Shown: positions 250 through 40,903 of the stretch, in pieces
Position numbering within the stretch: the first letter of the stretch is position 1
How the letters are laid out: each line of letters opens with the position of its first letter
DNA from: Deltaproteobacteria bacterium
GTDB lineage: Bacteria; Myxococcota; Myxococcia; SLRQ01
Assembly (NCBI GenBank): GCA_029210625.1
Contig: JARGFU010000036.1
Location: 1-43,271, forward strand
Direction of reading: 5' to 3'
Length of the DNA: 43,271 bases
The notes under the pieces: generated by a model
Told to the model about the DNA's origin: nothing
Seen by the model: the letters and a program-made list of their open reading frames with translations, nothing else
Databases searched by the model: none
Made by a program: the position numbers and the translations under genes

Positions 250-10328
<10,079 letters not shown>

Positions 10329-10332
<4 letters not shown>

Positions 10333-10799
10333 TCGAGGCGAAGATCGTGGAGGGCGACCTCCTCAACCAGGAGGTCGAGGTCATCGTCAACGCCTGGAAC
10401 CGCAACCTGATCCCCTGGTGGCTGCTCCTGCCCCAGGGGGTCTCGGGGGCGATCAAGAAGCGGGGCGGCGCCGCCCCTTTTCGGGAGATCGCGAGGGGTG
10501 GGGCGATGCCCCTGGGCAGCGCCCGCCTCTCGGGGCCCGGGCGGCTCCCCTTCCGGGCGATCATCCACGTGGCGGGCATCGACCTGCTCTGGCGGGCCTC
10601 GCGGGCCTCGATCCAGGGCTCGGTGGAGAGCGCCATGGCCCTGGTCGAGCAGGAGGGCTTCGCCAGCGTGGCCTTCCCCGTCATCGGCGCGGGCTCGGGC
10701 AGCTTCGACGAGGAGGGCGCGCTCCGGCTCATGCAGGAGGCGCTCGCCGGCCTCTCGAGCCGGGCCGAGGTCCGCATCGTCCGCTTCCGCCGCGGATGA
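10329..10799 (+). CDS. Macro-domain protein (ADP-ribose-binding family)
   Basis: 156 residues forming a single macro domain. The N-terminal GDLLN...VIVNAWN segment corresponds to the usual GDIT...DAIVNAAN ADP-ribose-binding motif, and FPVIGAGSGSFD to the conserved FPxIGxGxxG loop. Macro domains bind or hydrolyse ADP-ribose, O-acetyl-ADP-ribose or ADP-ribosylated side chains; which one applies here cannot be told. The usual glycine-rich GGGG loop is replaced by a tryptophan/leucine-rich segment (IPWWLLLPQGVSGAI), so the substrate pocket may differ. The ATG overlaps the preceding TGA by four bases and its own TGA overlaps an fdhD start in the same way, so translation is probably coupled. Confidence 0.8.
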
Positions 10800-11680
10800 C
10801 GCTGGCCTTCGGGGCCGGTCGGGACGAGACTCCTCCCATGGCTGATGGACCCGTCACCGAGGTGGAGGTGCAGCGCCACGGCCGCGAGCCCGGGCGCCGG
10901 GAGGACCGGGTGGTGGTCGAGGAGCCGATGGAGATCCGCCTCGAGTTCGGCCCCCTCGAGGCCCGGCTGGGCAAGAGCGTGAGCATCACCATGCGCACCC
11001 CGGGCGAGGACTTCGAGCTGGCCTCCGGACTCCTCTTCTCCGAGGGCATCATCGAGAGCGCCGCCGAGCTGAAGGGCGTCGAGCGCTGCGGGCCTCCCGC
11101 CGCCGGGAGGAGCGAGAGCAACGTGGTGAAGGTGAGCCTCTCGCCCGAGGCCGAGATCGATCCGGTGCGGCTGCAGCGCAACCTGATCTCGTCGTCGGCC
11201 TGCGGGGTCTGCGGCAAGGCCAGCCTGGAGGCGGTGGTGCCCGCCGAGCCGGTGGGGCCGGTGCCGGCGGGGCCGCGCCTGTCGGCGGCGACGATCCAGG
11301 CCTGGCCCGCCCGCCTGCGCGAGGGGCAGGACGCCTTCGCCGCCACCGGCGGAGTTCACGCCGCCGGGGTCTTCACGCCCGGCGGGGAGCTCGCCCTGCT
11401 GCGCGAGGACGTCGGCCGCCACAACGCCGTGGACAAGGTGGTGGGCGCGCTCCTCGCCCGCGGCGAGCTCCCGGTGGGCGAGCGCTGCCTGGTGGTCAGC
11501 GGCCGCACCAGCTTCGAGATCCTCCAGAAGGCGATCCGGGCGGGCTTCCCGGTGGTCGCCGGCGTGGGGGCACCCTCGAACCTCGCCATCGAGCTCGCCC
11601 GCCGCTTCGGCCTCACCCTCCTGGGCTTCCTGCGAGAGGATGGCTTCAACGTCTACGCCGGAGAGGAGCGGGTGGAGTAG
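10796..11680 (+). CDS. fdhD: FdhD, formate dehydrogenase sulfurtransferase/accessory protein
   Basis: FdhD passes sulfur from a cysteine desulfurase to the Mo-bis-MGD cofactor of formate dehydrogenase. The family's CxxC loop is present as SSSACGVCGK (Cys136/Cys139 from this start), as are VVVEEPMEI, LASGLLFSEGII, GGVHAAG and EDVGRHNAVDK. Length is 294 residues, or 280 from the inner ATG at 10838; E. coli FdhD is about 277. I chose 10796 because it overlaps the macro stop (ATGA); neither start has a good Shine-Dalgarno. It sits directly upstream of its client formate dehydrogenase genes. The stop is TAG, and a TAGGCT box overlaps it ahead of the next gene. Confidence 0.93.
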   Translation: MTLAFGAGRDETPPMADGPVTEVEVQRHGREPGRREDRVVVEEPMEIRLEFGPLEARLGKSVSITMRTPGEDFELASGLLFSEGIIESAAELKGVERCGPPAAGRSESNVVKVSLSPEAEIDPVRLQRNLISSSACGVCGKASLEAVVPAEPVGPVPAGPRLSAATIQAWPARLREGQDAFAATGGVHAAGVFTPGGELALLREDVGRHNAVDKVVGALLARGELPVGERCLVVSGRTSFEILQKAIRAGFPVVAGVGAPSNLAIELARRFGLTLLGFLREDGFNVYAGEERVE

Positions 11681-11692
11681 GCTAGCGGGGGG

Positions 11693-13207
11693 GTGAGAAA
11701 GAAGGGCGCCAGACCGGAGGAGATCCTCCCCTCCCTCGCCGAGAAGGGCGGGGTGCTCGGTGGAAGCGTGCGCGAGGTCTCTCGGGAGACCGGCGTCCCC
11801 GAGGCCGAGGTCTGGGGCGCGGGCACCTTCTACGGGCTGCTCGCCGAGCCGGGCGAGCGGGTGCGGGTCTGCGGCGGCCTCTCCTGCCACCTGGCCGGCA
11901 CCGATCGCCTCTGCGACGACCTGCGGGCCGAGGGGCACACCGTCGAGCAGGTGAGCTGCCTGGGCCGCTGCGACCAGGCCCCCGCCGCCCTCGACCCCTC
12001 CCTCGAGCTCCTCTCGGGGGTCGAGCCCGGGCGGGTGCTGCCCGCCGACCGGGAGCTCCCGATCGATCTGGGGGGGCCGGACTACGGCGGCTACACCGCC
12101 CTGGAGCGCGCCCGCGACCTGGGCCCGGCGGCGGTGATCGACCTCGTCGAGGCCGCCGGCCTGCAGGGGCGCGGCGGCGCCGCCTTCCCGGCACACCTGA
12201 AGTGGCGCGCGGTGCGGGCCGCCCGGGACGCGACCCGCTACCTGGTGGTGAACGCCGACGAGGGCGAGCCGGGCACCTTCAAGGACCGCGAGGTGATGCT
12301 GCGTCGGCCGCACCGCCTGCTCGAGGGCGCCGCCATCGCCGCCGAGGCCGTCGGCGCCCGGGAGATCGTCCTCTACCTGCGCGGTGAGTTCCTCGACTGC
12401 GCCCGCAGCCTGGAGCGGGCGCTGGAGGAGGCCCTGCCGGCGCTGGCCGGCCTGACGCTGCACCTGCACCTGGGCCACGGCGCCTACATCTGCGGCGAGG
12501 AGACGGCGCTCCTCGAGTCCCTGGAGGGCCGGCGCGGCGAGCCCCGCCTCAAGCCTCCCTTCCCCACCGAGGCGGGCCTCCGGGGACGGCCCACCCTCAT
12601 CCACAACGTCGAGACCCTCGCCTGCCTGCCCTTCGTCCTCACCGAGGGCGGGGAGGCCTTCCGCGCTCTGGGCCGCACCGAGCCCGGCACCAAGCTCTAC
12701 TGCGCCTCCGGGGCGGTGAAGCGGCCCGGGGTCTACGAGCTGCCCCTGGGCGTGACCCTCGACGAGCTGGTCGAGGCGGCTGGCGGCTACCGAGGCACGC
12801 CCCGGGCCTTCTCCCCCGGCGGCGCCTCCTCCGGCTTCCTGCCGATGCGCGAGCGCGGCCGCCCCCTGGACGTGAAGCACCTGGCCGAGGTCGGCTCGAT
12901 GCTCGGCAGCGCCGGGGTGGTGGTGCTGCCGGACACCGTCGATCTGCTGGAGGCGGCGCGGGTGCAGCTCGCCTTCTTCGCCGCCGAGAGCTGCGGGCAG
13001 TGCGCGCCCTGCCGGATCGGCACCCGCTTCCTCCTGCAGGCCGCCACCCGCTTCGCCGGAGGCGAGGCCGCGGCGCTGGCCCACGCCGGGGACGTGGCCT
13101 GGGAGATGGCCGAGGGCTCGATCTGCGGGCTGGGGATGAGCGCCGCGAGCCCCCTGACCAGCCTGCAGCGGCACTTCCCCGAGCTCTTCGAGGGAGGCGA
13201 GGGATGA
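11693..13207 (+). CDS. fdhB: NuoE-NuoF fusion: NAD-linked formate dehydrogenase beta (diaphorase) subunit
   Basis: 504 residues with a GTG start. Residues 1-115 are NuoE-like, thioredoxin-fold, with the [2Fe-2S] ligands Cys60, Cys65, Cys89 and Cys93. Residues 130-504 are NuoF-like: FMN/NAD motifs GRGGAAFPAHLKW, NADEGEPGTFKDR and GAYICGEETALLESLEG, then the [4Fe-4S] ligands Cys434, Cys437, Cys440 and Cys478. This layout is typical of the FMN-containing beta subunit of soluble NAD+-dependent formate dehydrogenases and related hydrogenases. It passes electrons between NAD(H) and the FdhA iron-sulfur chain. The TGA stop overlaps the fdhA ATG (ATGA). Distinction from complex I is by context: no other nuo genes, and fdhD/fdhA on either side. 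Confidence 0.92.
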   Translation: MRKKGARPEEILPSLAEKGGVLGGSVREVSRETGVPEAEVWGAGTFYGLLAEPGERVRVCGGLSCHLAGTDRLCDDLRAEGHTVEQVSCLGRCDQAPAALDPSLELLSGVEPGRVLPADRELPIDLGGPDYGGYTALERARDLGPAAVIDLVEAAGLQGRGGAAFPAHLKWRAVRAARDATRYLVVNADEGEPGTFKDREVMLRRPHRLLEGAAIAAEAVGAREIVLYLRGEFLDCARSLERALEEALPALAGLTLHLHLGHGAYICGEETALLESLEGRRGEPRLKPPFPTEAGLRGRPTLIHNVETLACLPFVLTEGGEAFRALGRTEPGTKLYCASGAVKRPGVYELPLGVTLDELVEAAGGYRGTPRAFSPGGASSGFLPMRERGRPLDVKHLAEVGSMLGSAGVVVLPDTVDLLEAARVQLAFFAAESCGQCAPCRIGTRFLLQAATRFAGGEAAALAHAGDVAWEMAEGSICGLGMSAASPLTSLQRHFPELFEGGEG

Positions 13208-15915
13208 GCCGGCGCCTCTCGATCCGGCTGGACGGCCGCGAGGTCGCGGCGCAGGAGGGCGAGACCCTCCTCACCGTCGCCCGCCGCGAGGGGATCGCGA
13301 TCCCCACCCTCTGCCACGACGACCGCCTCGCGCCGGCGGGCGCCTGCCGGGCCTGCCTGGTCGAGGTCGAGGGTGAGCGGCGGCTCCAGCCGGCCTGCAC
13401 CTACCCGGTCCGTGACGCCCTCGCGGTCGAGACCGCCAGTGCGCGGGTGAAGCGGCACCGCGAGGTGCTCTTCGGCCTCTACCTCGCCGATCACCGCCTC
13501 GACGCCGGCGGCCAGCCGGTGGAGACCCCCAACGGCAACGCCCTGCGGGCGCTCGCGGCCGAGCACGGCGCGCTGCCCCTCGCCGGCCTGCCGATGCTGC
13601 GGCGCGGCCGGCCCGAGGACCCCAACCCCTACCTCAAGTTCCGGCCCGAGCTCTGCCTGGTCTGCGGGCGCTGCACCCGCTACTGCGACGAGGTCGAGGG
13701 CGTCAGCGCCATCGCCCTGGGCTGGCGCGGCGGCGAGACCACGGTGGCCACCGCGGGGATGCGCGGGCTGCTCGAGACGACCTGCGAGCTCTGCGGCGGC
13801 TGCATCGACACCTGCCCCACCGGCGCCCTCGTCGAGCGCAAGCCCCCCGCCTCCCTGCGGCCCGGAGACACGGAGAAGGTCCGCAGCACCTGCAACTACT
13901 GCGGGGTGGGCTGCCAGCTCGATCTCCACGTGAAGGGCGGGCGGCTCTTGAAGGTGACGAGCCCCGCGCCGGGCACCACCGTCAACGACGGGAACCTCTG
14001 CGTGAAGGGGCGCTTCGCCCACGACTTCGTCCACCACCCCGAGCGGCTGACGACGCCGCTGGTGCGCGGCGAGGACGGGGAGCTGCACCCGGCGACCTGG
14101 AGCGAGGCCCTCGACCGGGCGGCGAGGGGGCTCCTGGCCGTGAAGAAGCGCCACCACGCCGGGGCCCTGGGCTTCGTCTCCTCGAGCCGCTGCACCGGCG
14201 AGGAGAACTACCTGATGCAGAAGCTGGCCCGGGCCGCCTTCGGGACCAACAACTGTCATCAGTGCGCGGCCACCTGACACGCCCCGACGGTCGCCGGTCT
14301 GGTGACCATGTTCGGTGCGGGCGCGATGACCAACTCCATCCCGGAGATCCGGGACGCGGAGCTCCTCTTCGTCATCGGCTCGAACACCACCGAGGCGCAC
14401 CCGATCATCGCCATGGAGATGAAGCGGGCGGTGCAGCGGGGCGCGCGGCTGATCGTGGCCGACCCCCGGGCGATCTGGCTCACTCAGATCGCGGATCTCC
14501 ACCTCCCCCTGCGCCCGGGCACCGACGTCTGGCTGCTCAACGCCATGGCCCACGTGATCCTCGCCGAGGGGCTCGAGGACGCCCGCTTCGTCGCCGAGCA
14601 CACCGAGGGCCTGCCCGCCCTGCGGGAGGCCGTGAAGGAGTACAGCCCCGAGGCCGCCGAGGTGGTGACGGGGCTGCCCGCCGGGCAGATCCGCGAGGCG
14701 GCGCGCGCCTACGCGACGACGCGGAGGGCCGGCGTCTACTACACGCTGGGCATCACCGAGCACACCCACGGCACCGACAACGTCTACGCCCTGGCGAACC
14801 TCGTTCTGATGACCGGCCACCTCGGCGTGCGCTCCGCGGGGATGAACCCCCTGCGCGGTCAGAACAACGTCCAGGGCGCCAACGACGCGGGCGCCTCGCC
14901 GATCTTCCTGCCGGGCTACCAGCGGGTCGACGACCCGGAGGCCCGCGCGCGCTTCGGCGCGGCCTGGGGCGCCCCGGTGCCGGAGGAGGCCGGGCTGAAC
15001 CTCAACGCGATGATGAAGGCGATCGGCGAGGAGGTGAAGGGCCTGCTGGTGATGGGGGAGGACCTGCTGGTCTCCGAGCCCAACGTCGGCCGCCTCGAGG
15101 AGGCCTTCAACGGGCTCGAGTTCCTGGTGGTGCAGGACATCTTCCCCAACGAGACGATGCGCTTCGCCGACGTCGTCCTGCCGGCCGCCTCCTTCGCCGA
15201 GAAGGACGGGGTCTTCACCAACAGCGACCGCCGGGTGCAGCTCGTCCGGAAGGCCGTCGAGCCTCCCGGCGAGGCCCGCGCCGACTGGGAGATCCTCTGT
15301 GACCTGGCCCGGGCGGCGGGCTACCCGATGCCCCACTACGCCTCGGCCGCCGAGATCTACGCCGAGATGGCCTCCCTCTCCCCGAAGTTCGCCGGCATCT
15401 CCCACGCCCGGATCGCGGCCGAGGGCGGGCTGCAGTGGCCCTGCCCCACGCCGGATCACCCCGGCACGCCCACCCTCCACGAGGGCGGACCGATCATCGG
15501 CAAGGCGACCTTCCAGCCGGTGGCCTACCGGCCCAGCGCCGAGGTGGAGGACGTGGAGTACCCCTTCCTCCTCTCCACCGGCCGCACCCTCTACCAGTAC
15601 AACGCCGCCACCCAGACCCGCCGGGATCCGGGCACCGCCCTGAAGGACGGGGTCTGCTTCCTCGAGATGCATCGCCACGACGCGAAGGTGGCCGGCCTCG
15701 AGGACGGCCAGCGGGTGCGGGTCAGCTCCCGTCGCGGCAGCGTCGAGGCTCGCCTCTCGGTCTCGAGCCGGGTGCGCCCCGGCCGGGTCTGGATGCCCTT
15801 CCACTACGCCGAGGCCCGGGCGAACCTCCTGACCAACGACGCCGGGGACACCGTCACCGGGACGGCCGAGTACAAGGTCTGCGCCGTGAAGGTCGATGGG
15901 CTCGGCGACGCGTAG
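13204..15915 (+). CDS. fdhA: Selenocysteine-containing formate dehydrogenase alpha subunit
   Basis: Molybdopterin formate dehydrogenase of 903 residues, read through an in-frame TGA (14275-14277) as selenocysteine 358. The N-terminus is a NuoG-like [2Fe-2S] domain (Cys37, 48, 51, 65), followed by two [4Fe-4S] clusters (Cys151/154/157/161 and Cys194/197/200/204) and the Mo-domain cluster (Cys230/233/237/266). UGA lies at the catalytic site: CAAT-Sec-HAPTVAGL corresponds to the family's C-A-R-V-Sec-H-G-P-S-V-A-G-L. The same frame then runs without interruption to the TAG at 15913 through the rest of the family (RGQNNVQG, D-V-V-L-P). The start overlaps the fdhB stop. With FdhB it would form an NAD-linked formate dehydrogenase or CO2 reductase. 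A caller that stops at UGA would split this gene in two. Confidence 0.95.
14275..14310 (+). promoter_or_regulatory. UGA selenocysteine codon and bacterial SECIS hairpin
   Basis: Eleven bases after the UGA, GGTCGCC (14289-14295) pairs completely with GGTGACC (14301-14307), allowing one G-U pair. The five-base loop is GGTCT. The E. coli fdhF SECIS has the same spacing and the same GGUCU apical loop, which SelB recognises. The hairpin is inside coding sequence, as expected for bacteria. selA, selB, selC and selD are not in this window. Confidence 0.92.
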
Positions 15916-22695: not shown

Positions 22696-24207
22696 TTGAG
22701 AAAACGCTCCACGATCCAGATCCTCACCGCCCTGCTCCTCGCGTCGGGAGCCGGCGGCGCCCTCCTCGGCGCGCTCGCCGCCTCCCCCGCGTCCGCCCAG
22801 CCAGGCGAACGCTACGCCGAGGTCTTCTCCGAGAAGCTCAAGATCCAGCGGGATCTGCGGGAGCGCCTCCAGGAGACCCTCTCGCCCCTGGCCGAGCCCT
22901 TCCACATCTACGTCTCGGTCTCGGTGGAGGCCAAGGCCGAGGTGCGCAAGCTCATCGACAAGGAGACCACCCCGGGGATGCAGGTGGACATGGGCTCGGG
23001 GGAGTCCTTCAAGCTCCCGGGCCTGCCCACCGTGCAGGGGACCAAGCTCAAGGGCTCCCCCAAGGTGAACATCACGGTGCCCAGCCGGGAGAGCATCTCC
23101 ACCCGGGAGACGATCCAGGCCAAGCTGCACGCGATCAAGGTCGAGGTGCGGCACCAGCCCGGCATCACCGAGGAGCGCCTGGCGCAGATGCACGAGGTGG
23201 CCGTGGGGGTCGCTGGCCTCGATCTGACGGGGGGCGACTCGATCGTCTTCGTCGAGATGGCCCGCAACGCCGCCGAGGAGGTCGAGTTGCTCTTCGCCCC
23301 CGATCTGATCCCGGTCATCATCATCTGCCTGACCATCCTGCTCTCGACCTTCATGCTGGCGATGGCCATCGGCCGCCGGAAGGTCCACACCACCGAGACC
23401 GCCGGAGCGGGCGGCGGGGCCGGCCCGAACTTCAGCGACGCCGCCGAGATCGAGCTCGAGGGTGACCCGGACGCGACCGGCAACGGCGCGATCATCGGGC
23501 ACCTCGGCACCGGGTACTTCGGCTTCGTCTCGGAGCTGAACCACGACCAGCAGGTCGAGCTCTTCGCCACCCTCGAGCCCCAGGTGGCGGCCATCGTCAT
23601 CGACTGCATCGGTGTCGCCGCCGGCGTCCTGCGGGAGGCCTTCGAGCAGGTCGAGGAGAAGCAGAAGCTGGCCCTGATCCGCGCCATGGCCGAGCCCCGG
23701 AAGGTGGAGACCGCCCGCATCGAGGCCATGGAGGCCGAGGTGCAGGCGACGGTCGACCAGATCAAGAGCCGGATCAAGATCGGCTCGGCGGCCTCGGCCA
23801 CCGAGATCCTGGCGCTGACCTCCTCGGACGACACCCGGGCGATCCTCGAGGCCATCGGCGCCGAGAACCCCGCGCTGGCCGAGCAGCTGCGCTCGGGCCT
23901 CGTCCTCTTCGAGGACGTGCCCGGCCTGCCGGTCGCCCAGGTGCGCACCGCCGTCGCCGCCGCCGACCCGCACACCGTCGCGGTGGCCCTCCGCGGCGCC
24001 GATCCCGCCATCCGCAAGGCCATCCTGGAGTCGGTCTCCAAGCGCCTGGCGGCCTTCCTCGAGTCCGAGGAGCAGTACCTCGGCGAGGTCAGCGAGGAGC
24101 AGGTCGAGGAGGCCCGGCTGCAGTTCGAGGCCCACCTGCGCAGCTCCGGCAGCGCGAAGAAGCCGGCCTCGGCGGAGGCCTCGAAGGAAGCCGCGGGGGC
24201 CGCATGA
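22696..24207 (+). CDS. Natural FliF-FliG fusion: ring segment plus motor-switch protein
   Basis: 503 residues from TTG 22696, chosen for the GAGAGG Shine-Dalgarno 8 bases upstream and the signal peptide that then follows (A-S-A just before residue 35). Residues about 65-190 resemble the third ring-building motif of FliF: HIYVSVSVEA, a 45-residue insertion, then IKVEVRHQPGITEERLAQM and GGDSIVFVEMA. A transmembrane helix (204-226) is followed by a FliG middle-like region (about 275-400, LEPQ at the EHPQ site) and a FliG C-terminal torque domain (401-478, LFEDV, VALRGADPAIRKAILESVSKR). The torque helix keeps Arg450 and an acidic cluster (Glu456, Glu458, Glu459). FliG N-domain, FliM and FliN are absent. 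It heads an operon with TPR, MotA and two MotB genes, so it is inferred to be the rotor of a stand-alone motor. Confidence 0.8.
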   Translation: MRKRSTIQILTALLLASGAGGALLGALAASPASAQPGERYAEVFSEKLKIQRDLRERLQETLSPLAEPFHIYVSVSVEAKAEVRKLIDKETTPGMQVDMGSGESFKLPGLPTVQGTKLKGSPKVNITVPSRESISTRETIQAKLHAIKVEVRHQPGITEERLAQMHEVAVGVAGLDLTGGDSIVFVEMARNAAEEVELLFAPDLIPVIIICLTILLSTFMLAMAIGRRKVHTTETAGAGGGAGPNFSDAAEIELEGDPDATGNGAIIGHLGTGYFGFVSELNHDQQVELFATLEPQVAAIVIDCIGVAAGVLREAFEQVEEKQKLALIRAMAEPRKVETARIEAMEAEVQATVDQIKSRIKIGSAASATEILALTSSDDTRAILEAIGAENPALAEQLRSGLVLFEDVPGLPVAQVRTAVAAADPHTVAVALRGADPAIRKAILESVSKRLAAFLESEEQYLGEVSEEQVEEARLQFEAHLRSSGSAKKPASAEASKEAAGAA

Positions 24208-24971
24208 AGCTCGTCGTCCTCTTTGTCGCCGGGATGGCCATGGGCAGCCTGCCCGACCGGGCCGGCCTGCGCGACGCCCTCTTCCACTATCCCAACGAGG
24301 CGGGCGAGACCGCGCCGGTGGGGGAGGACCTCGAGTGGGAGGGACAGGGCAAGGTGCAGGTCAAGTTCGCCCGCACCTACCAGGAGCGCCGGGACGCCGC
24401 CCTCACCAAGGTGGCGGACCGCCTGAAGATGCTCACCGACCTGCTGGCCACCGCCTCGGCCGCCGAGAAGAAGGCCGACAAGGAGGCCGCCCGCCTCAAC
24501 CTCAAGGGCTACGCCGCCGACACCCTCGGCCAGAACGACGCCGACTTCGTCGAGGCCGTGACCTGGGAGGGCAAGCGGATCCGCATGCTCCAGCGGGCGA
24601 TGAAGGGGGCCAAGGCCAAGAAGGAGGTCATCCCCGAGCTGCAGGGGGATCGCCTCGACAACGCCGCGGTGCTCATCGACAACGGCGTCCTCGAGGAGCG
24701 GGTGAAGCAGCAGTCGGAGGCCTACCGCCTGGTCGCCGAGAGCTACGCCGCCTTCCTCGACAACAAGCTCATCGACGCCATGAAGAAGATGGAGGAGGCG
24801 AGCAAGCTCCTCCCCGACGTCGGGCTGCCCCACGTGCTGATGGGCTCCTTCTACTTCCTCGCCCGGGACCAGGAGCAGGCCCTGAGCGAGTGGAAGAAGG
24901 CCCTCGAGCTCGATCCGGACAACGACGAGCTCAAGCAGATCATCGAGCAGTTCGCGAACCTCGACGAATAG
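24204..24971 (+). CDS. TPR protein of the motor-like operon
   Basis: 255 residues. A short hydrophobic N-terminus (MKLVVLFVAGMAMGS) may be a signal or anchor. The middle is helical and lysine-rich with a long charged stretch (about 55-150). The C-terminus holds two to three TPR-like helix pairs (about 175-253), the last reading ALSEWKKALELDPDND. TPR proteins serve as assembly or pilotin-like factors; the partner here is presumably the fused rotor protein. The ATG overlaps the rotor gene's stop (ATGA), and MotA begins 9 bases after its TAG. Confidence 0.8.
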   Translation: MKLVVLFVAGMAMGSLPDRAGLRDALFHYPNEAGETAPVGEDLEWEGQGKVQVKFARTYQERRDAALTKVADRLKMLTDLLATASAAEKKADKEAARLNLKGYAADTLGQNDADFVEAVTWEGKRIRMLQRAMKGAKAKKEVIPELQGDRLDNAAVLIDNGVLEERVKQQSEAYRLVAESYAAFLDNKLIDAMKKMEEASKLLPDVGLPHVLMGSFYFLARDQEQALSEWKKALELDPDNDELKQIIEQFANLDE

Positions 24972-24980
24972 AGAGACAGC

Positions 24981-25730
24981 ATGCGTTCCACCACCTACCT
25001 GGGCTTCCTCCTGGGTATCGCCGTCGTCTATGGCGTCGTCCTCGCCAAGGGCGGCGACGTCTCGATCTTCATGAACCCCATCGCCCTGACGGTCTGCGTG
25101 GGGGGCACGATCGCGGCCACGACCCTCTCCTCCTCCCGCTCGACGCTGATCCACGCCTTCTCGGCGATGAAGAAGCTCCTCGTGAAGCGGACCTCGAAGT
25201 GGCAGGAGGTCGCCGCCGTCATCGTCGAGATGGCCCGGACCGCCAAGACCTCGGGCCTGGCCGCCATCGATCCCGAGAAGCTGCCGCTCGCCAGCCCCTT
25301 CCTGAAGAAGGGCACCCAGCTGGTCGTCGACGGCGTGGAGCCCGAGCGGATCGAGGAGCTCCTGCGCCTCGAGTCCCAGATCCTCTCCGAGAAGCGCAAG
25401 TCCGCCGAGCGGATGTTCCGGCTGATGGGCACCTACTCGCCGATGTTCGGCCTGGTGGGCACCCTCATCGGCCTCATCCAGATGCTCAAGGACCTGCAGG
25501 ATCCCCGAGCCATCGGCCAGGGCATGTCGGTGGCGCTGATGGCCACCTTCTACGGGGTGCTCCTGGCGGGCCTGGTCTTCCTCCCCCTGGCGGGGAAGAT
25601 CCACACCCTCGACGAGGACGAGCGGCTGGTGCGGGACCAGATCCTGGCCGGGCTGCTCTCGGTGCGGGTCGGCGAGAACCCGGAGCACATCCGGGAGACC
25701 GTCGAGACCTTCGGAGCCCGACGCGACTGA
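24981..25730 (+). CDS. motA: MotA/PomA-family stator subunit
   Basis: 249 residues with four transmembrane segments (about 5-22, 32-50, 152-172, 184-204) and the long cytoplasmic loop between the second and third. Pro154 in TYSPMFGLVGTLIGLI and Pro202 occupy the conserved proline sites of MotA. The loop segment EMARTAKTSGLAAIDPE matches the charged region that contacts FliG in flagellar motors, with Lys and Asp in place of the usual Arg and Glu. With MotB it forms an ion-driven stator. ExbB/TolQ and AglR-type proteins are relatives, but the MotA-specific loop and the neighbouring MotB genes favour MotA. A GAGAG precedes the ATG. Confidence 0.9.
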   Translation: MRSTTYLGFLLGIAVVYGVVLAKGGDVSIFMNPIALTVCVGGTIAATTLSSSRSTLIHAFSAMKKLLVKRTSKWQEVAAVIVEMARTAKTSGLAAIDPEKLPLASPFLKKGTQLVVDGVEPERIEELLRLESQILSEKRKSAERMFRLMGTYSPMFGLVGTLIGLIQMLKDLQDPRAIGQGMSVALMATFYGVLLAGLVFLPLAGKIHTLDEDERLVRDQILAGLLSVRVGENPEHIRETVETFGARRD

Positions 25731-25743
25731 CGCGGGGCCGCTC

Positions 25744-26373
25744 ATGCGCACCAACCCCCGCTTCACCGAGGAGGAGTCCCCCTCCCCGCTGCAGGACGCG
25801 ACCTGGCTCTACTCCTACGCGGACATGATCACCCAGCTCCTGCTCTTCATCATCCTGACGGTCTCGGTGGTGGGCCTGAAGGCGATGGACCAGGTCAGCC
25901 AGGAGGACGAGCAGGTCAACGAGGCGGTGGAGGAGTTCGAGGACCTGATCGCCAAGCAGGGGCTCGACGATCAGCTCGACATCGACCGGGCCGCCGGAAG
26001 GCTGGTGATCCGCCTGCGCAGCTACCTGCTCTTCGGTGAGGGCAAGGCCGATCTCGGCCCCGACGCCGCGGCGGTCCTGGACGGCGTGGTGGTGCTCCTG
26101 CGGCACACCGACCGCCACATCCGGGTCGAGGGGCACACCGACAACGTGCCCATCAAGAGCGCGCGCTTCCCCTCCAACTGGGAGCTCTCCACCGAGCGGG
26201 CCCTCTCGGTGATCGAGTACTTCGAGAAGGCCGGGATCGCCCGGGATCGCCTCTCGGTCGCGGGCTACGGAGAGTTCCACCCGATCATGCCCAACGACAC
26301 CAAGGCCCACCGGACCCTGAACCGGCGGGTCGAGATCGCCCTCCTCGAGGCCAAGCAGGAGGCCGGGGAGTGA
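25744..26373 (+). CDS. motB: MotB-like stator subunit, copy 1
   Basis: 209 residues. A short cytoplasmic tail, then one transmembrane helix with the ion-binding Asp27 in WLYSYADMITQLLLF, a linker, and an OmpA-type peptidoglycan-binding domain (about 70-200: VEGHTDNVPI, SNWELSTERA, NRRVEI). It would couple ion flow to MotA and anchor the stator to the cell wall. The linker is short, so the OmpA domain begins close to the membrane. It lies 13 bases after motA and its TGA overlaps the next GTG. Confidence 0.9.
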   Translation: MRTNPRFTEEESPSPLQDATWLYSYADMITQLLLFIILTVSVVGLKAMDQVSQEDEQVNEAVEEFEDLIAKQGLDDQLDIDRAAGRLVIRLRSYLLFGEGKADLGPDAAAVLDGVVVLLRHTDRHIRVEGHTDNVPIKSARFPSNWELSTERALSVIEYFEKAGIARDRLSVAGYGEFHPIMPNDTKAHRTLNRRVEIALLEAKQEAGE

Positions 26374-27101
26374 AGAAGAAGGGCTTCCAGATCAGCCAGT
26401 CCCCGGAGACCGAGGAGGACCTCTCGGCCTTCTGGCTGATCACCTACTCGGACATGACCACCCTCCTGCTGGCCTTCTTCCTCCTCATCTACGCCTTCAC
26501 GGTGATGGGGGATCAGGGGCGGGAGTCCCTCCTCGACGCGCTGAACCTCATCGACAAGAACACGCCCGCCGAGGAGCTCGACGAGCCGCTCGCGGCCCTC
26601 CGGGAGAAGGCCGATCAGATCGCCGAGATGATGGGCCAGGAGGCCGAGGAGAAGCCCTGGGTGCAGGCCACCGAGTCCGAGGTGACCATCGGCCTGCCCG
26701 CCGGCATCACCTTCGCCTCGGGCAGCGCCAAGCTGAACCCGGCCGCCAGCAAGCACCTGGCCCACGCCGCCCGGGTCCTCCAGGGGCCCGGCCAGCTCAT
26801 CCGGATCGAAGGCCACACCGACGACATCCCGGTCCTGGGGGGGGCCTACCGGAGCAACTGGCACCTCTCGGTGGCCCGGGCCCAGACCGTGGTGCAGATC
26901 TTCGTCGCCGAGGGGATCAAGCCCCGGCAGATCGAGGTGGCGGGCTACGCCGACACCCGCCCCCGGGACACCAACGAGACCCCGCAGGGGAGGGCGAACA
27001 ACCGCCGGATCGAGATCAAGCTCCTCTCCAGCGGCGCGGCCGGGGGGGAGGCTCCTGCCCCCGCCTCGGCCCCCGCGCCGGCCCCCGGGGAGGCCGGCTG
27101 A
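26370..27101 (+). CDS. MotB-like stator subunit, copy 2
   Basis: 243 residues from a GTG that overlaps the previous stop (GTGA). The transmembrane helix carries Asp28 in [17 protein letters not shown], so the ion-binding residue is kept. The OmpA domain follows (about 100-222, [16 protein letters not shown]) and ends in an Ala/Pro-rich tail of about 20 residues. It differs clearly from copy 1, with a longer linker and different loops, so it is an old duplication. MotA-MotB stators usually have one MotB type; two suggest a mixed or exchangeable stator. Confidence 0.9.
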
Positions 27102-28117: not shown

Positions 28118-28272
28118 ATCCTCGGCCGTCCCCCACGACGCCCTCCCGGGCAGCGTGGCGGGCGGCCGTCGTGTATCCGTCGCTTGTTCCAAGGTCGCGA
28201 TCGACTGTGGTAGTTGGGGGAATTCGCGGGTGTTCTCCCGTCCCCGCCCGACTTCCCCTGGAGGGTCTCGAA

Positions 28273-29745
<1,473 letters not shown>

Positions 29746-31050
29746 GAGCGCAGCGCGACCGGCACCTACAACCTGGTCTGGCAGGGCCTCGCCGCCGAGG
29801 GCCACGGCGACAACGGCGTGGGCCCCCTCTCGGTGCTCGGTGACCTCGACCAGGACGGCCTCCTCGACATCGTCACCGGCCGGACCGCCTACGACTTCGT
29901 CGGCGGCGTGATGTGGGACGACGCGGTCACCGATCGCGCCGGCGCCCCCACCGACGGCTTCGTGGCCCTGGGCAACTTCGACGCCGACCCCAACCCCGAG
30001 GTGGTGGTGGTGGCCGACGCCCAGCTCTTCCTCCTCGAGCACGACGGCACCCTGAAGTGGGGCCCCGAGCTCCTGCCGGCCGGGGCCGGGCAGACCGCCC
30101 GCCGGGGCGGCCCGCCGACCGTGGCCGACTTCGACGGCGACGGTCAGCCGGAGATCGGCCTGGCCACCAACGGCGCCTACGCCGTCTACGACACCGGCGG
30201 TGAGCTGCTCTGGAGCCGCGACACCCAGGACCTCTCCTCGGCGGCGACCGGCTCCTCGGTCTTCGACTTCGAGGGCGATGGCTGGGCCGAGGTCGTCTAC
30301 AACGACGAGGTCTACCTGCGGGTCTTCGACGGCGAGACCGGCAGCGTCCTCTACGAGCAGCCCAACACCACCGCCACCGCCTACGAGTACCCCGTCATCG
30401 CCGACGTGGACGGCGACGGCGCGGCGGAGATCGTGGTCTCGGCGAACCCCTACGGCAGCAACCCGACCACCGGCATCCAGGTCTTCGGGGGCGGCCTCGA
30501 CGGCACCGGCCAGCCGGTCTGGGTGGACACCCGCCCGATCTGGAACCAGCACGGCTACCACATCTCGAACGTCCACGACGACGGCACCCTGCCGATGGTG
30601 GAGGCCGACGCCTGGGATCCAGGCACCATCGACGGCTGGGCCTTCGGCAGCGGCGGCGGCACCTACCGCGCCAACGCCAGCCCCCCGATCGTCGGCTTCT
30701 TCGAGCCCGCGGCGGACCTCGCCGTCACCTCGGCGATGATCGACCGGAGCAGCTGCGACACCGAGCTCACCCTGCGCTTCTGGGTCGACAACGTCGGCGC
30801 CACCACCGCGCCGGCGGGCATCACCGCCGACGTCTACCGGGGCCGCTACGTGGCCGCCCCCGACTTCCTGGGCAGCGCCACCACCACGGTGGCCCTGGCG
30901 CCCGGGGAGGGGGAGCTCCTCTCGGTGCGGATCACCTCGCCGGGGGCCCGCGACGACGTGCTCATCGTGGTGGACGACGCGGACGCGATCAGCGAGTGCG
31001 GTGGCCCGGCCAACGGCAACCTGATCGTCGGCGCGGTGGGCTGCCCCTAA
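29746..31050 (+). pseudogene. C-terminal part of the broken TSP3/FG-GAP lipoprotein
   Basis: 434 codons in the same frame as the N-terminal part. It continues the FG-GAP repeats (DLDQDGLLDIV, DFDGDGQPEIGLA, DVDGDGAAEIVVS) to about 30490, then has a CARDB-like domain (AADLAVTSAMIDRSSCDTELTLRFWVDNVGA) and ends NLIVGAVGCP. The first usable start inside is GTG 29818, but it has no Shine-Dalgarno and no signal peptide, so a separate product would not reach the surface. I read it as the detached half of the upstream gene. Confidence 0.75.
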
Positions 31051-38400: not shown

Positions 38401-40212
38401 CTAGAGGTTCGCGGTGCGGGCGGGGTTCTCGCGGGGGGCCAGCAGGTTGAAGCCCTCGACGGGCCACTTCTTGTAGTTGGCGTTGCGGCGCACGAAGGTG
38501 TCGAGGCGCTCGTCGACGACCTGGTGGTAGCCGGCCTTCGCCGCGTGGCGCAGGTAGGTGACCTCGCCCTTCTGGAAGACGAAGCCGAGGTGGGTGACCC
38601 GGTAGGGGCGGACGGGGAGATCCCGCCGGACCACCAGGAGCAGGGTGGCGTCGGGGATGCGGGCCATCACCTCCGGGAAGACGGCGATGGGGATGATCGG
38701 CAGGCGGTAGAGGCCGGTGGGCACCTCCTCGGAGGCGAGCGGCAGATCGACGCCCCGGCGGCTCGCCCAGAGGGCGGCGTCGAGGGTCTTCTCGGTCTCG
38801 ACCACGTGCTCCCCGCCCACCTCGCGGGTGACGTCGATCAGGTAGCCCTTCTCGACGTTGCGCGGGATCCACTCGGCCATCATCAGGTGGTTGCGCTCCC
38901 CGAAGCTCGGGCGGCCGCGGGCGTAGCGCAGGTCGAGGAGGACGGGCAGGGGATCCTCCACCGGCGAGGCGGCCAGGGCGAGCACCTGCTCGACGTAGGT
39001 CAGGCAGTCGACGGCGTCGTAGCGGGCGAGGGGATCGGGATCGAAGCCCGCGCCCTCCCCCAGGGGGGAGATCTGGTAGGGCACGCCCTTGAAGTGATCG
39101 GAGAAGGCCGCGAGGCGCTCGGCGTGGGTGGCGGGCCGCTCCCGCAGGGAGCGGATGAGGCGGCCGAGCTCCTCGCCGGGCACCGTGTCCGCCGGCCGGG
39201 CGGCGGGCGGGGCGGGCGCCCCCATGCCAGCGCCGCCGCCCTCGGTGGCCATCTTCTGGCGCAGGCGGTCCACCGTCTTCTGATCCACCTTCAGCCTCCC
39301 CATCGCGTCGGCGGCGGGGACCGCGAGTCCGTCGGCGTCGGTGTCGAGCACCTTCAGCACGTAGATGAGGCCGGCGTCGACGCCCTGGGCGCCGAGGGCC
39401 TCGGCCACGCTCAGGCGGGTGCGGGGATCGGGCTCCCCCGCCAGGGCCTTCTCCAGGGCCTTCTTCGACCAGGGGGCCTCGACCTTGCCCAGGAGGGCGG
39501 CGGCGTCCTGCCGCTGGTAGGGCTCGGGGGCGGCGAGGCCGGCCAGGAGCTGCTGCCTCGCGCTGGGATCGCCCAGGAGCGCCAGGCCCCGCAGGGCGGT
39601 GAGGCGGATCGTCTCGCTCGGGCTCTTCAGCTTCGCCTTCAGGGCGGGCGCGCTGGCGCGGTCTCCCGTGTCACCGATCGCCTCCAGGAGGTAGACCTCC
39701 AGCTCGCGATCCTCGCCGACCTTGGTCAGCGCGCCGCGCAGGGCCTTGCCCGCCGCCGGGCCGCCGAGGGCGCCGAGGGTGCGCACCGCCTCCAGCCGCA
39801 CCGGCCGCTGCGCGTCGCCCAGGAGGGCCGCCACGACCTTCACCTGCGCCCTCCCGCCGTGCCGGCGCAGGGCGAAGAGGGCCTCCCTGCGCACCTCCCA
39901 GTCGGGATCCTCGGTCGCCGTGGAGAGGGGGCCCACCACCCGGGGATTCTTGTCGAGGAAGCCCAGCAGGTAGGCCGCCTTGATCCGGGCCTGGGTGTCG
40001 GGATCCTGCAGGAGGCTCGAGATGTCGTAGGGGACCCGGGGGTGGTGCCCGAAGGAGAGCTCGTTGATCAGCGGGTCCAGCGCCTCCTTCGGCGTCTGGC
40101 GGATCCGCAGCAGGAGCAGCTCGTTCTGGGCCTTCGCCGGGGTAGGGGCCAGGAGGGCCAGCAGCAGGGCGAGAGAGAGGAGGCGTCCGGTGATACGCAT
40201 GACGCGCCACAT
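38401..40212 (-). CDS. Exported HEAT-repeat protein fused to a DUF1460 (NlpC/P60-like) domain
   Basis: 603 residues from ATG 40212, chosen because GGAG lies 8 bases upstream; a second ATG 12 bases inside is possible. A signal peptide ends at A-K-A before residue 29. Residues about 60-310 are HEAT-type helical pairs (WEVRREALFALRRHG, PVRLEAVRTLGALGG). After a Pro/Ala linker, residues 345-603 match DUF1460, an N-acetylmuramoyl-L-alanine amidase-like, papain-fold family: FKGVPYQISPLGEG, Cys403 in YDAVDCLTYVEQVLALA and His541 in VTHLGFVF are the likely catalytic pair. It would act in the periplasm on peptidoglycan or a related amide. The combination with HEAT repeats is unusual. The 3' end is duplicated downstream. 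Confidence 0.85.
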   Translation of the reverse strand: MWRVMRITGRLLSLALLLALLAPTPAKAQNELLLLRIRQTPKEALDPLINELSFGHHPRVPYDISSLLQDPDTQARIKAAYLLGFLDKNPRVVGPLSTATEDPDWEVRREALFALRRHGGRAQVKVVAALLGDAQRPVRLEAVRTLGALGGPAAGKALRGALTKVGEDRELEVYLLEAIGDTGDRASAPALKAKLKSPSETIRLTALRGLALLGDPSARQQLLAGLAAPEPYQRQDAAALLGKVEAPWSKKALEKALAGEPDPRTRLSVAEALGAQGVDAGLIYVLKVLDTDADGLAVPAADAMGRLKVDQKTVDRLRQKMATEGGGAGMGAPAPPAARPADTVPGEELGRLIRSLRERPATHAERLAAFSDHFKGVPYQISPLGEGAGFDPDPLARYDAVDCLTYVEQVLALAASPVEDPLPVLLDLRYARGRPSFGERNHLMMAEWIPRNVEKGYLIDVTREVGGEHVVETEKTLDAALWASRRGVDLPLASEEVPTGLYRLPIIPIAVFPEVMARIPDATLLLVVRRDLPVRPYRVTHLGFVFQKGEVTYLRHAAKAGYHQVVDERLDTFVRRNANYKKWPVEGFNLLAPRENPARTANL

Positions 40213-40236
40213 CTTATAGACTCCGGGGTCTGAAAG

Positions 40237-40842
40237 GTGGTGGCGCCCACAATCCCCTTTGATCTCATTCTGGCGACGTCCATCGGACTCCTCGTGACCT
40301 GGGGAGGCGCGGAGGCCCTCGAGCGCGAGGGCTGGCGCGCCTTCTGGCAGATCGGCGCGGAGGTCCTCGCCTTCCACCTGCTGATCTTCTGCCCGGTGGG
40401 GGTGTACCTCTACGCCACCGAGCCGGCCTGGTCCTGGAACTACCTCGTCGATCCCGAGGGGCCCTCGGGCTGGCTCGGCTGGGTGGGCGTGAGCCTCTAT
40501 GCGGTGATGGGGATGGTGGGGACCGCGGTCGGCGGCCTGCTGGTCCGCCGCGGCCAGCGCCGGATCCTCCTGGGCGCGGTGATCGCGACCCTCGCGATGC
40601 AGGGGCTCTTCTTCGCGGTCTTCTTCCAGGAGTTCTGGTGGGTCGGCAGCTACAAGGCCTTCCAGGCCGGCCCCGAGGCGGGTGGGATGCAGACCTTCGT
40701 CGAGGCCCGCCTCGGCTGGTCGCTCTTCCTCGTCGGCCCGATCTTCGTGGGCGTCGTGGGTTGGCTCTTCCTGCGCTGGAAGCGCTTCTCCCGGCGCCTC
40801 CGCCTCGGCCCCTCCGAGCTGGAGATGGCCGAGAAGTCTTGA
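40237..40842 (+). CDS. Multi-TM membrane protein, unknown
   Basis: 201 residues from GTG 40237. About five hydrophobic segments: 7-23, 40-60, 78-102, 110-131 and 155-177, with a positively charged C-terminal tail (RWKRFSRRLRLG). No known domain is recognised. It starts only 24 bases from the divergent HEAT/DUF1460 start, so the two genes must have overlapping promoters. The start is uncertain, because no clear Shine-Dalgarno is present. Confidence 0.7.
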   Translation: MVAPTIPFDLILATSIGLLVTWGGAEALEREGWRAFWQIGAEVLAFHLLIFCPVGVYLYATEPAWSWNYLVDPEGPSGWLGWVGVSLYAVMGMVGTAVGGLLVRRGQRRILLGAVIATLAMQGLFFAVFFQEFWWVGSYKAFQAGPEAGGMQTFVEARLGWSLFLVGPIFVGVVGWLFLRWKRFSRRLRLGPSELEMAEKS

Positions 40843-40874
40843 AATTTCTTGGGGAAAGCGGGTCTGGGGTAATA

Positions 40875-40903
40875 TTGACACTCACCCGAACGCCCTGCTA
40901 CCT
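40875..40903 (+). promoter_or_regulatory. Probable promoter of the DUF4398/OmpA lipoprotein genes
   Basis: A perfect TTGACA (40875-40880) followed after 17 bases by CTACCT (40898-40903), a poor -10 match typical of GC-rich genomes. Transcription would start near 40910. The leader contains a small hairpin (CGGCAC 40916-40921 with GTGCCG 40932-40937). Confidence 0.5.

Follow-up and report, generated by a model that had tools for sequence, protein, structure and literature searches.

A natural FliF-FliG fusion encoded with MotA and two MotB proteins in Myxococcota: a possible stand-alone rotary motor

The stretch of DNA considered here, hereafter the window, comprises positions 1–43,271 of a contig (JARGFU010000036.1, assembly GCA_029210625.1) from a bacterium of the phylum Myxococcota. 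It carries a cassette of five genes (22696–27101), the first of which encodes a natural fusion of parts of the flagellar proteins FliF and FliG. This gene is followed by genes for a secreted tetratricopeptide repeat (TPR) protein, for MotA, and for two MotB proteins, here called MotB1 and MotB2. The fusion gene (22696–24207, forward strand) is a genuine gene of 503 codons, which begins with TTG after a GAGAGG-like ribosome site, and its stop codon overlaps the ATG of the TPR gene. GC content at the three codon positions is 0.69, 0.46, and 0.95, measured on a longer open reading frame (ORF) from 22588, which is a coding-type profile in a window of 71% GC. A spurious ORF or a chance resemblance is ruled out by the orthologues, the profile matches, and the ratio of nonsynonymous to synonymous substitutions (dN/dS). 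The search for a sigma-70-type promoter ahead of the operon, which is uninformative here, found none.

The fusion combines selected parts of both parent proteins, as judged from profile matches, a predicted structure, and an alignment of orthologues (the window fusion and seven others, one of them partial). Residues 1–35 (22696–22800) read as a signal peptide or signal anchor with a cleavage-like site (ASPASAQ), and the N-terminus is hydrophobic in every orthologue with a complete 5′ end. Profiles and fold matches identify residues 36–191 (22801–23268) as the third ring-building motif (RBM3) of FliF, with a collar insertion. A transmembrane helix at residues 205–227 (23308–23376), supported by profile and AlphaFold2, is the counterpart of the second transmembrane helix (TM2) of FliF and is immediately followed by RRK. 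Profile–profile comparison aligns this N-terminal part with FliF from RBM3 through TM2 (probability 93.9, E = 1.6e-7), taking in a GLD..RGD-like stretch of RBM3.

The middle and C-terminal domains of FliG occupy residues 273–489 (23512–24162). The Pfam family FliG_C matches residues 386–482 of the window fusion (E = 1.5e-17), and the eight-orthologue profile matches solved FliG middle and C-terminal domains (3ajc, E = 4.3e-36, profile positions 269–489). In single Pfam scans, FliG_C is detected in all eight orthologues, YscJ_FliF_C in five (best E = 4.6e-4), and FliG_M, weakly, in three; the middle domain is present by profile and fold coverage. Four of the eight proteins also match MgtE_N (best E = 9.7e-6), a Pfam family that likewise marks the ARM-like domain of the E-ring proteins FlgY and FlbB (PMC13023049).

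Other parts of the parent proteins are missing. The fusion has no match to the family covering RBM1 and RBM2 (PF01514), and about 36 residues precede RBM3; the window genome matches PF01514 only once, in an SctJ-type protein encoded on a different contig, C27. Pfam scans likewise find no FliG_N match in the fusion. Where FliF would have its C-tail and FliG its N-domain, residues 228–272 (23377–23511) form a linker that is predicted to be disordered.

The AlphaFold2 model, computed from the eight-sequence alignment, is a monomer with a predicted template modelling score (pTM) of 0.36, and the relative positions of its domains are therefore unreliable. Taken in blocks, the predicted local distance difference test score is about 80–91 in residues 41–80 and 141–190, lower in the intervening collar insertion, about 80–94 in residues 281–480, and below 50 in residues 227–271. 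The N-terminal part consists of a helix (36–66), strands (71–92, 95–99, 124–128, and 131–153), a second helix (159–173), and a final strand (182–187), which is the secondary-structure order of RBM3. The helix at 205–227, a disordered stretch at 227–271, and FliG-type helices at 276–486 complete the model. Residues 36–191 resemble the flagellar S-ring and RBM3 (8z5v, Z 12.8; 8ftf, 2.8 Å over 102 residues; 7bk0, 3.4 Å over 102 residues), and residues 273–489 resemble FliG (8wiw, Z 15.7, 3.7 Å over 215 residues). They also match FliG bound to MotAB (8ucs, 1.5 Å over 86 residues). An initial annotation, made from the letters of the DNA, had proposed a FliF RBM3-like domain, one transmembrane helix, and the FliG middle and torque domains within 503 residues, with the first two FliF ring motifs and the FliG N-domain gone. 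Profiles and predicted structure agree with this description, and both a ring-building fold in residues 65–190 and armadillo-like helices in residues 275–478 are present, leaving the proposal unrefuted.

Alignment and model place the torque helix of FliG at residues 449–460 (24040–24075). It contains Arg450 and Glu458, two of the residues that the initial annotation had singled out. Arg450 aligns with Escherichia coli FliG Arg281 and is invariant in all eight orthologues, and Glu458, also found in all eight, aligns with Asp289. Within the flagellar motor, MotA R90 is reported to contact FliG D288–D289, and MotA E98 to contact FliG R281 (PMC12505986). The cassette MotA has Asp at the E98 position and Lys at the R90 position, the latter assignment being tentative because of a nearby alignment gap. 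The FliM-binding motif EHPQR is not kept: it reads LEPQ in the window fusion and is variable among the orthologues. Consequently, no chemotactic switching is predicted.

The four remaining genes lie downstream on the same strand. The TPR protein (24204–24971; 255 amino acids) has a hydrophobic, signal-like N-terminus. MotA (24981–25730; 249 amino acids) keeps Pro173 and Pro222. MotB1 (25744–26373; 209 amino acids) and MotB2 (26370–27101; 243 amino acids), whose genes overlap by four bases, each keep the channel Asp and carry an OmpA-like domain, described for MotB1 as peptidoglycan-binding. The channel Asp is retained in all 13 MotB sequences compared. MotA and the two MotB proteins have the sequence features of a MotAB stator, namely the MotA channel prolines, the MotB channel Asp, and a peptidoglycan-binding domain.

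The cassette is found in 8 of the 195 genomes surveyed, all of them Myxococcota, distributed over six genera and four families. Besides the window, the same five genes occur in the same order in G016, G057 (a contig of Anaeromyxobacter oryzisoli SG63), G089 (Myxococcales BP5.bin31), G125, and G192; G098 and G087 have the cassette in part, on contigs that end inside it. Apart from weak kinase or OmpA-type domain hits, flanking genes are unshared between carriers, except in the congeneric G016 and G089. A MotA with at least 67% identity to the cassette MotA occurs in 7 of the 195 genomes, every one a fusion carrier (67–69% identity to the window); the G098 contig ends ahead of MotA. A search of genome contigs for relatives returned three loci, one of which (L018, Elusimicrobia) matched in the FliG C-domain only, and the plasmids searched gave partial FliG-region matches and no fusion. 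Locus L074 (7597–8328; contig C13 of G097) holds an isolated MotA gene whose product is 50% identical to the cassette MotA and which may be a remnant or serve another partner; no match to the fusion, the TPR protein, or MotB lies within 18 kb of it.

Could the cassette be the decaying relic of a lost flagellum? The rarity and fast evolution of the rotor would suit such an origin, as would the lone MotA of G097. Decay is contradicted, however, by the five intact ORFs, by the retention of their order across unrelated neighbourhoods, and by dN/dS values of 0.23–0.55 (Nei–Gojobori; five genes, two pairs), which indicate purifying selection. A tree built from 44 FliG rows, moreover, groups the fused FliGs in a single deep, long-stemmed clade (support 100/100), apart from the flagellar FliGs found in the phylum. 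Two carriers, furthermore, possess a flagellum in addition to the cassette. The long branches leave the junction of this clade with flagellar FliG unsure. A relic is accordingly rejected as highly improbable.

No flagellar genes are detectable in the host genome of the window, which is 98% complete. Family searches, on which all absence calls in genomes rest, found neither a second FliG nor a canonical FliF nor any rod or hook proteins there, and the MotA_N family matched the cassette MotA alone. Rod and hook proteins were also not found in G057, G089, G098, and G125. G016 and G192, in contrast, carry a separate set of flagellar genes that includes FliF and FliG. Since carriers include genomes with and without flagellar genes, the cassette neither requires nor excludes a flagellum.

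The window genome does carry a short non-flagellar type III secretion system (T3SS) locus (L055, about 4300–12400; G000:C27) with matches to FlhA/SctV, FliP/SctR, SctQ, and SctJ. In the whole genome, FlhA-type, FliP-type, and FliM/N-type genes were each found once, all of them on this contig together with SctJ, in keeping with the gene set of the short non-flagellar T3SS of myxobacteria (PMC3459982). That system, of the same phylum and often of the same genome, is a flagellum–injectisome intermediate. It retains SctJ and the export gate but has neither FliG nor MotAB (PMC3459982), making it the half of a flagellum that complements the cassette. The fused ring might therefore surround the SctJ ring and supply its rotor, giving a rotary or proton-motive-force-boosted secretion machine. 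RBM3 is present in FliF and missing from SctJ, and a SctJ-type T3SS was found in every fusion carrier, the window genome included, except G087, which is 66% complete. Yet most Myxococcota without the cassette also have a SctJ-type T3SS, so the phylogenetic profile reveals no specific tie between the two. SctJ, SctV, and SctR lie on contig C27 rather than at the cassette, which itself holds no T3SS gene. Such a machine appears unlikely.

The cassette can be compared with several known systems. Shared with the flagellar MS-ring, C-ring, and MotAB are RBM3, TM2, the FliG middle and C-terminal domains, and the MotA and MotB channel residues. Unlike the flagellar motor, the cassette encodes FliF and FliG as one chain, lacks RBM1, RBM2, the FliG N-domain, and the FliM-binding motif, and comes with no rod, hook, or flagellar export apparatus; its operon has two MotB genes and a TPR gene. 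Covalently joined FliF and FliG also exist as engineered fusions, in Salmonella and in Vibrio (8z4d, 8z4g), which assemble and rotate (PMC10128058) or yield S-ring structures (PMC11481574); the initial annotation, too, had noted that such fusions can support rotation. Engineered fusions also form rings in non-motile hosts (PMC6079021). These man-made proteins are full length, whereas the natural fusion is reduced to RBM3, TM2, and the FliG middle and C-terminal domains. Neither a natural FliF-FliG fusion nor a machine of the class proposed below was found in the literature searched, which mostly excluded subscription papers and preprints, and the absence of a report is no proof of novelty. PflA, MotK, MotC, and FlcB are TPR-rich proteins tied to stators or to periplasmic rings and the E-ring (PMC13023049). 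The cassette similarly places a TPR gene beside stator genes, and its product may, by analogy, act like these scaffolds; the matches found for it are to the generic TPR fold and tie it to no particular scaffold family.

A further point of comparison lies within the phylum itself. The AglRQS gliding motor of Myxococcus comprises one MotA-type and two MotB-type proteins, as does the cassette. The cassette adds a FliG-type rotor, and both of its MotB proteins bear OmpA-like domains; neither feature is known for AglRQS. AglRQS is ion-driven, as the cassette device would be, and belongs to Myxococcota (PMC13104615). The cassette could then be a motor for gliding-type surface motility or envelope processing, used like AglRQS and equipped with a true FliG rotor, which would be a special case of the MotAB-driven ring proposed below. 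AglRQS gliders in the same phylum and the absence of rod and hook proteins from most carriers suit this idea. However, no Glt-like or adhesin gene lies beside the cassette (the rest of the genome was not searched for Glt genes). The OmpA-like domains that both MotB proteins carry suggest stators held in place, in contrast to Agl units, which are believed to move (PMC13104615). We regard this use as improbable.

The cassette is best read as encoding a dedicated, MotAB-driven rotor ring that is independent of the flagellum and its switch. It is likely that the five genes specify a self-contained rotary device that is driven by ions and sits in the inner membrane, and reasonably probable that this device is a stand-alone, naturally minimal motor, in which MotAB drives a ring of one fused FliF-FliG polypeptide that turns a non-flagellar load. 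Stator genes in the operon of the fusion, with overlapping starts and stops, make a MotAB-driven ring the simplest reading, and the five-gene order is kept where the flanks differ. The confinement of closely similar MotA proteins to fusion carriers, the retained torque-helix and channel residues, the purifying selection, and the behaviour of engineered fusions speak for this reading as well. As several carriers have no flagellum, the motor probably turns something else. RBM1 and RBM2 are the parts of FliF that hold the export gate, the outer S-ring and the collar being formed by RBM3; retention of RBM3 alone fits a ring without an export function.

Assembly might proceed as follows. The fusion protein would be exported via its signal sequence, and its RBM3 domains would build a periplasmic ring, equivalent to the S-ring and collar without the inner RBM1–RBM2 rings. 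From the membrane helix, the FliG domains would be suspended as a cytoplasmic torque ring, with the covalent joining of FliF and FliG replacing the contact between FliF C-tail and FliG N-domain. MotA, together with MotB1, MotB2, or both, would be anchored to peptidoglycan through the OmpA-like domains, push the FliG torque helix, and so turn the ring. The TPR protein, probably periplasmic, might position the stators or couple the ring to its load. Such a ring would operate with no rod, hook, or flagellar export apparatus and, having lost the FliM-binding motif, would probably lack a direction switch.

Several points weigh against this proposal. Ring formation and rotation are steps that we infer, as is the role of the TPR protein, and the structure model is a low-pTM monomer from eight sequences. 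The torque-interface residues Lys264, Asp288, and Arg297 are not conserved in the fusion orthologues, the cassette is rare, the fusion is fast-evolving (27–31% identity between the window and its orthologues), and no load or output gene is conserved beside the cassette. The partial loss of torque-interface charges and the lack of a conserved load gene would also suit a fusion that does not rotate and serves as a static anchor or mechanosensor docking MotAB stators, for example so as to gate ion flow upon contact. Nevertheless, the ring domain, torque helix, Arg281 equivalent, and channel residues are all retained, and a static role has a low probability. The interpretation offered in the initial annotation is supported; the shared cassette with genes for MotA and two MotBs and the lack of a flagellum in the genome go beyond it, and this cassette context makes the case considerably stronger.

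Elsewhere in the window, a UvrD-family helicase gene lies upstream of the cassette and genes for ribosomal proteins L13 and S9 lie downstream. An ORF of 3360 amino acids (250–10332) starts with a sequence resembling a lipoprotein signal (LTGCNCGEG), and at 11693–15915 NuoF-like and NuoG/molybdopterin oxidoreductase-like subunits of the NADH-dependent dehydrogenase type are divided among three ORFs. The protein encoded at 28171–29745 has seven or more thrombospondin type 3 repeats and is followed by an FG-GAP repeat protein (29818–31050), and the reverse strand encodes a HEAT-repeat protein with an N-acetylmuramoyl-L-alanine amidase-like domain at its C-terminus (38401–40881).

The cassette provides a concrete, conserved candidate for a system in which rotor and stator occur together without an export apparatus or propeller, possibly a machine of its own kind within the flagellar rotor–stator type. 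If it rotates, it would show what portions of FliF and FliG are enough to build a ring that bears torque, and it would offer a minimal natural rotor–stator pair for structural work. It would also bear on the existence of flagellar rotation modules separately from type III secretion.
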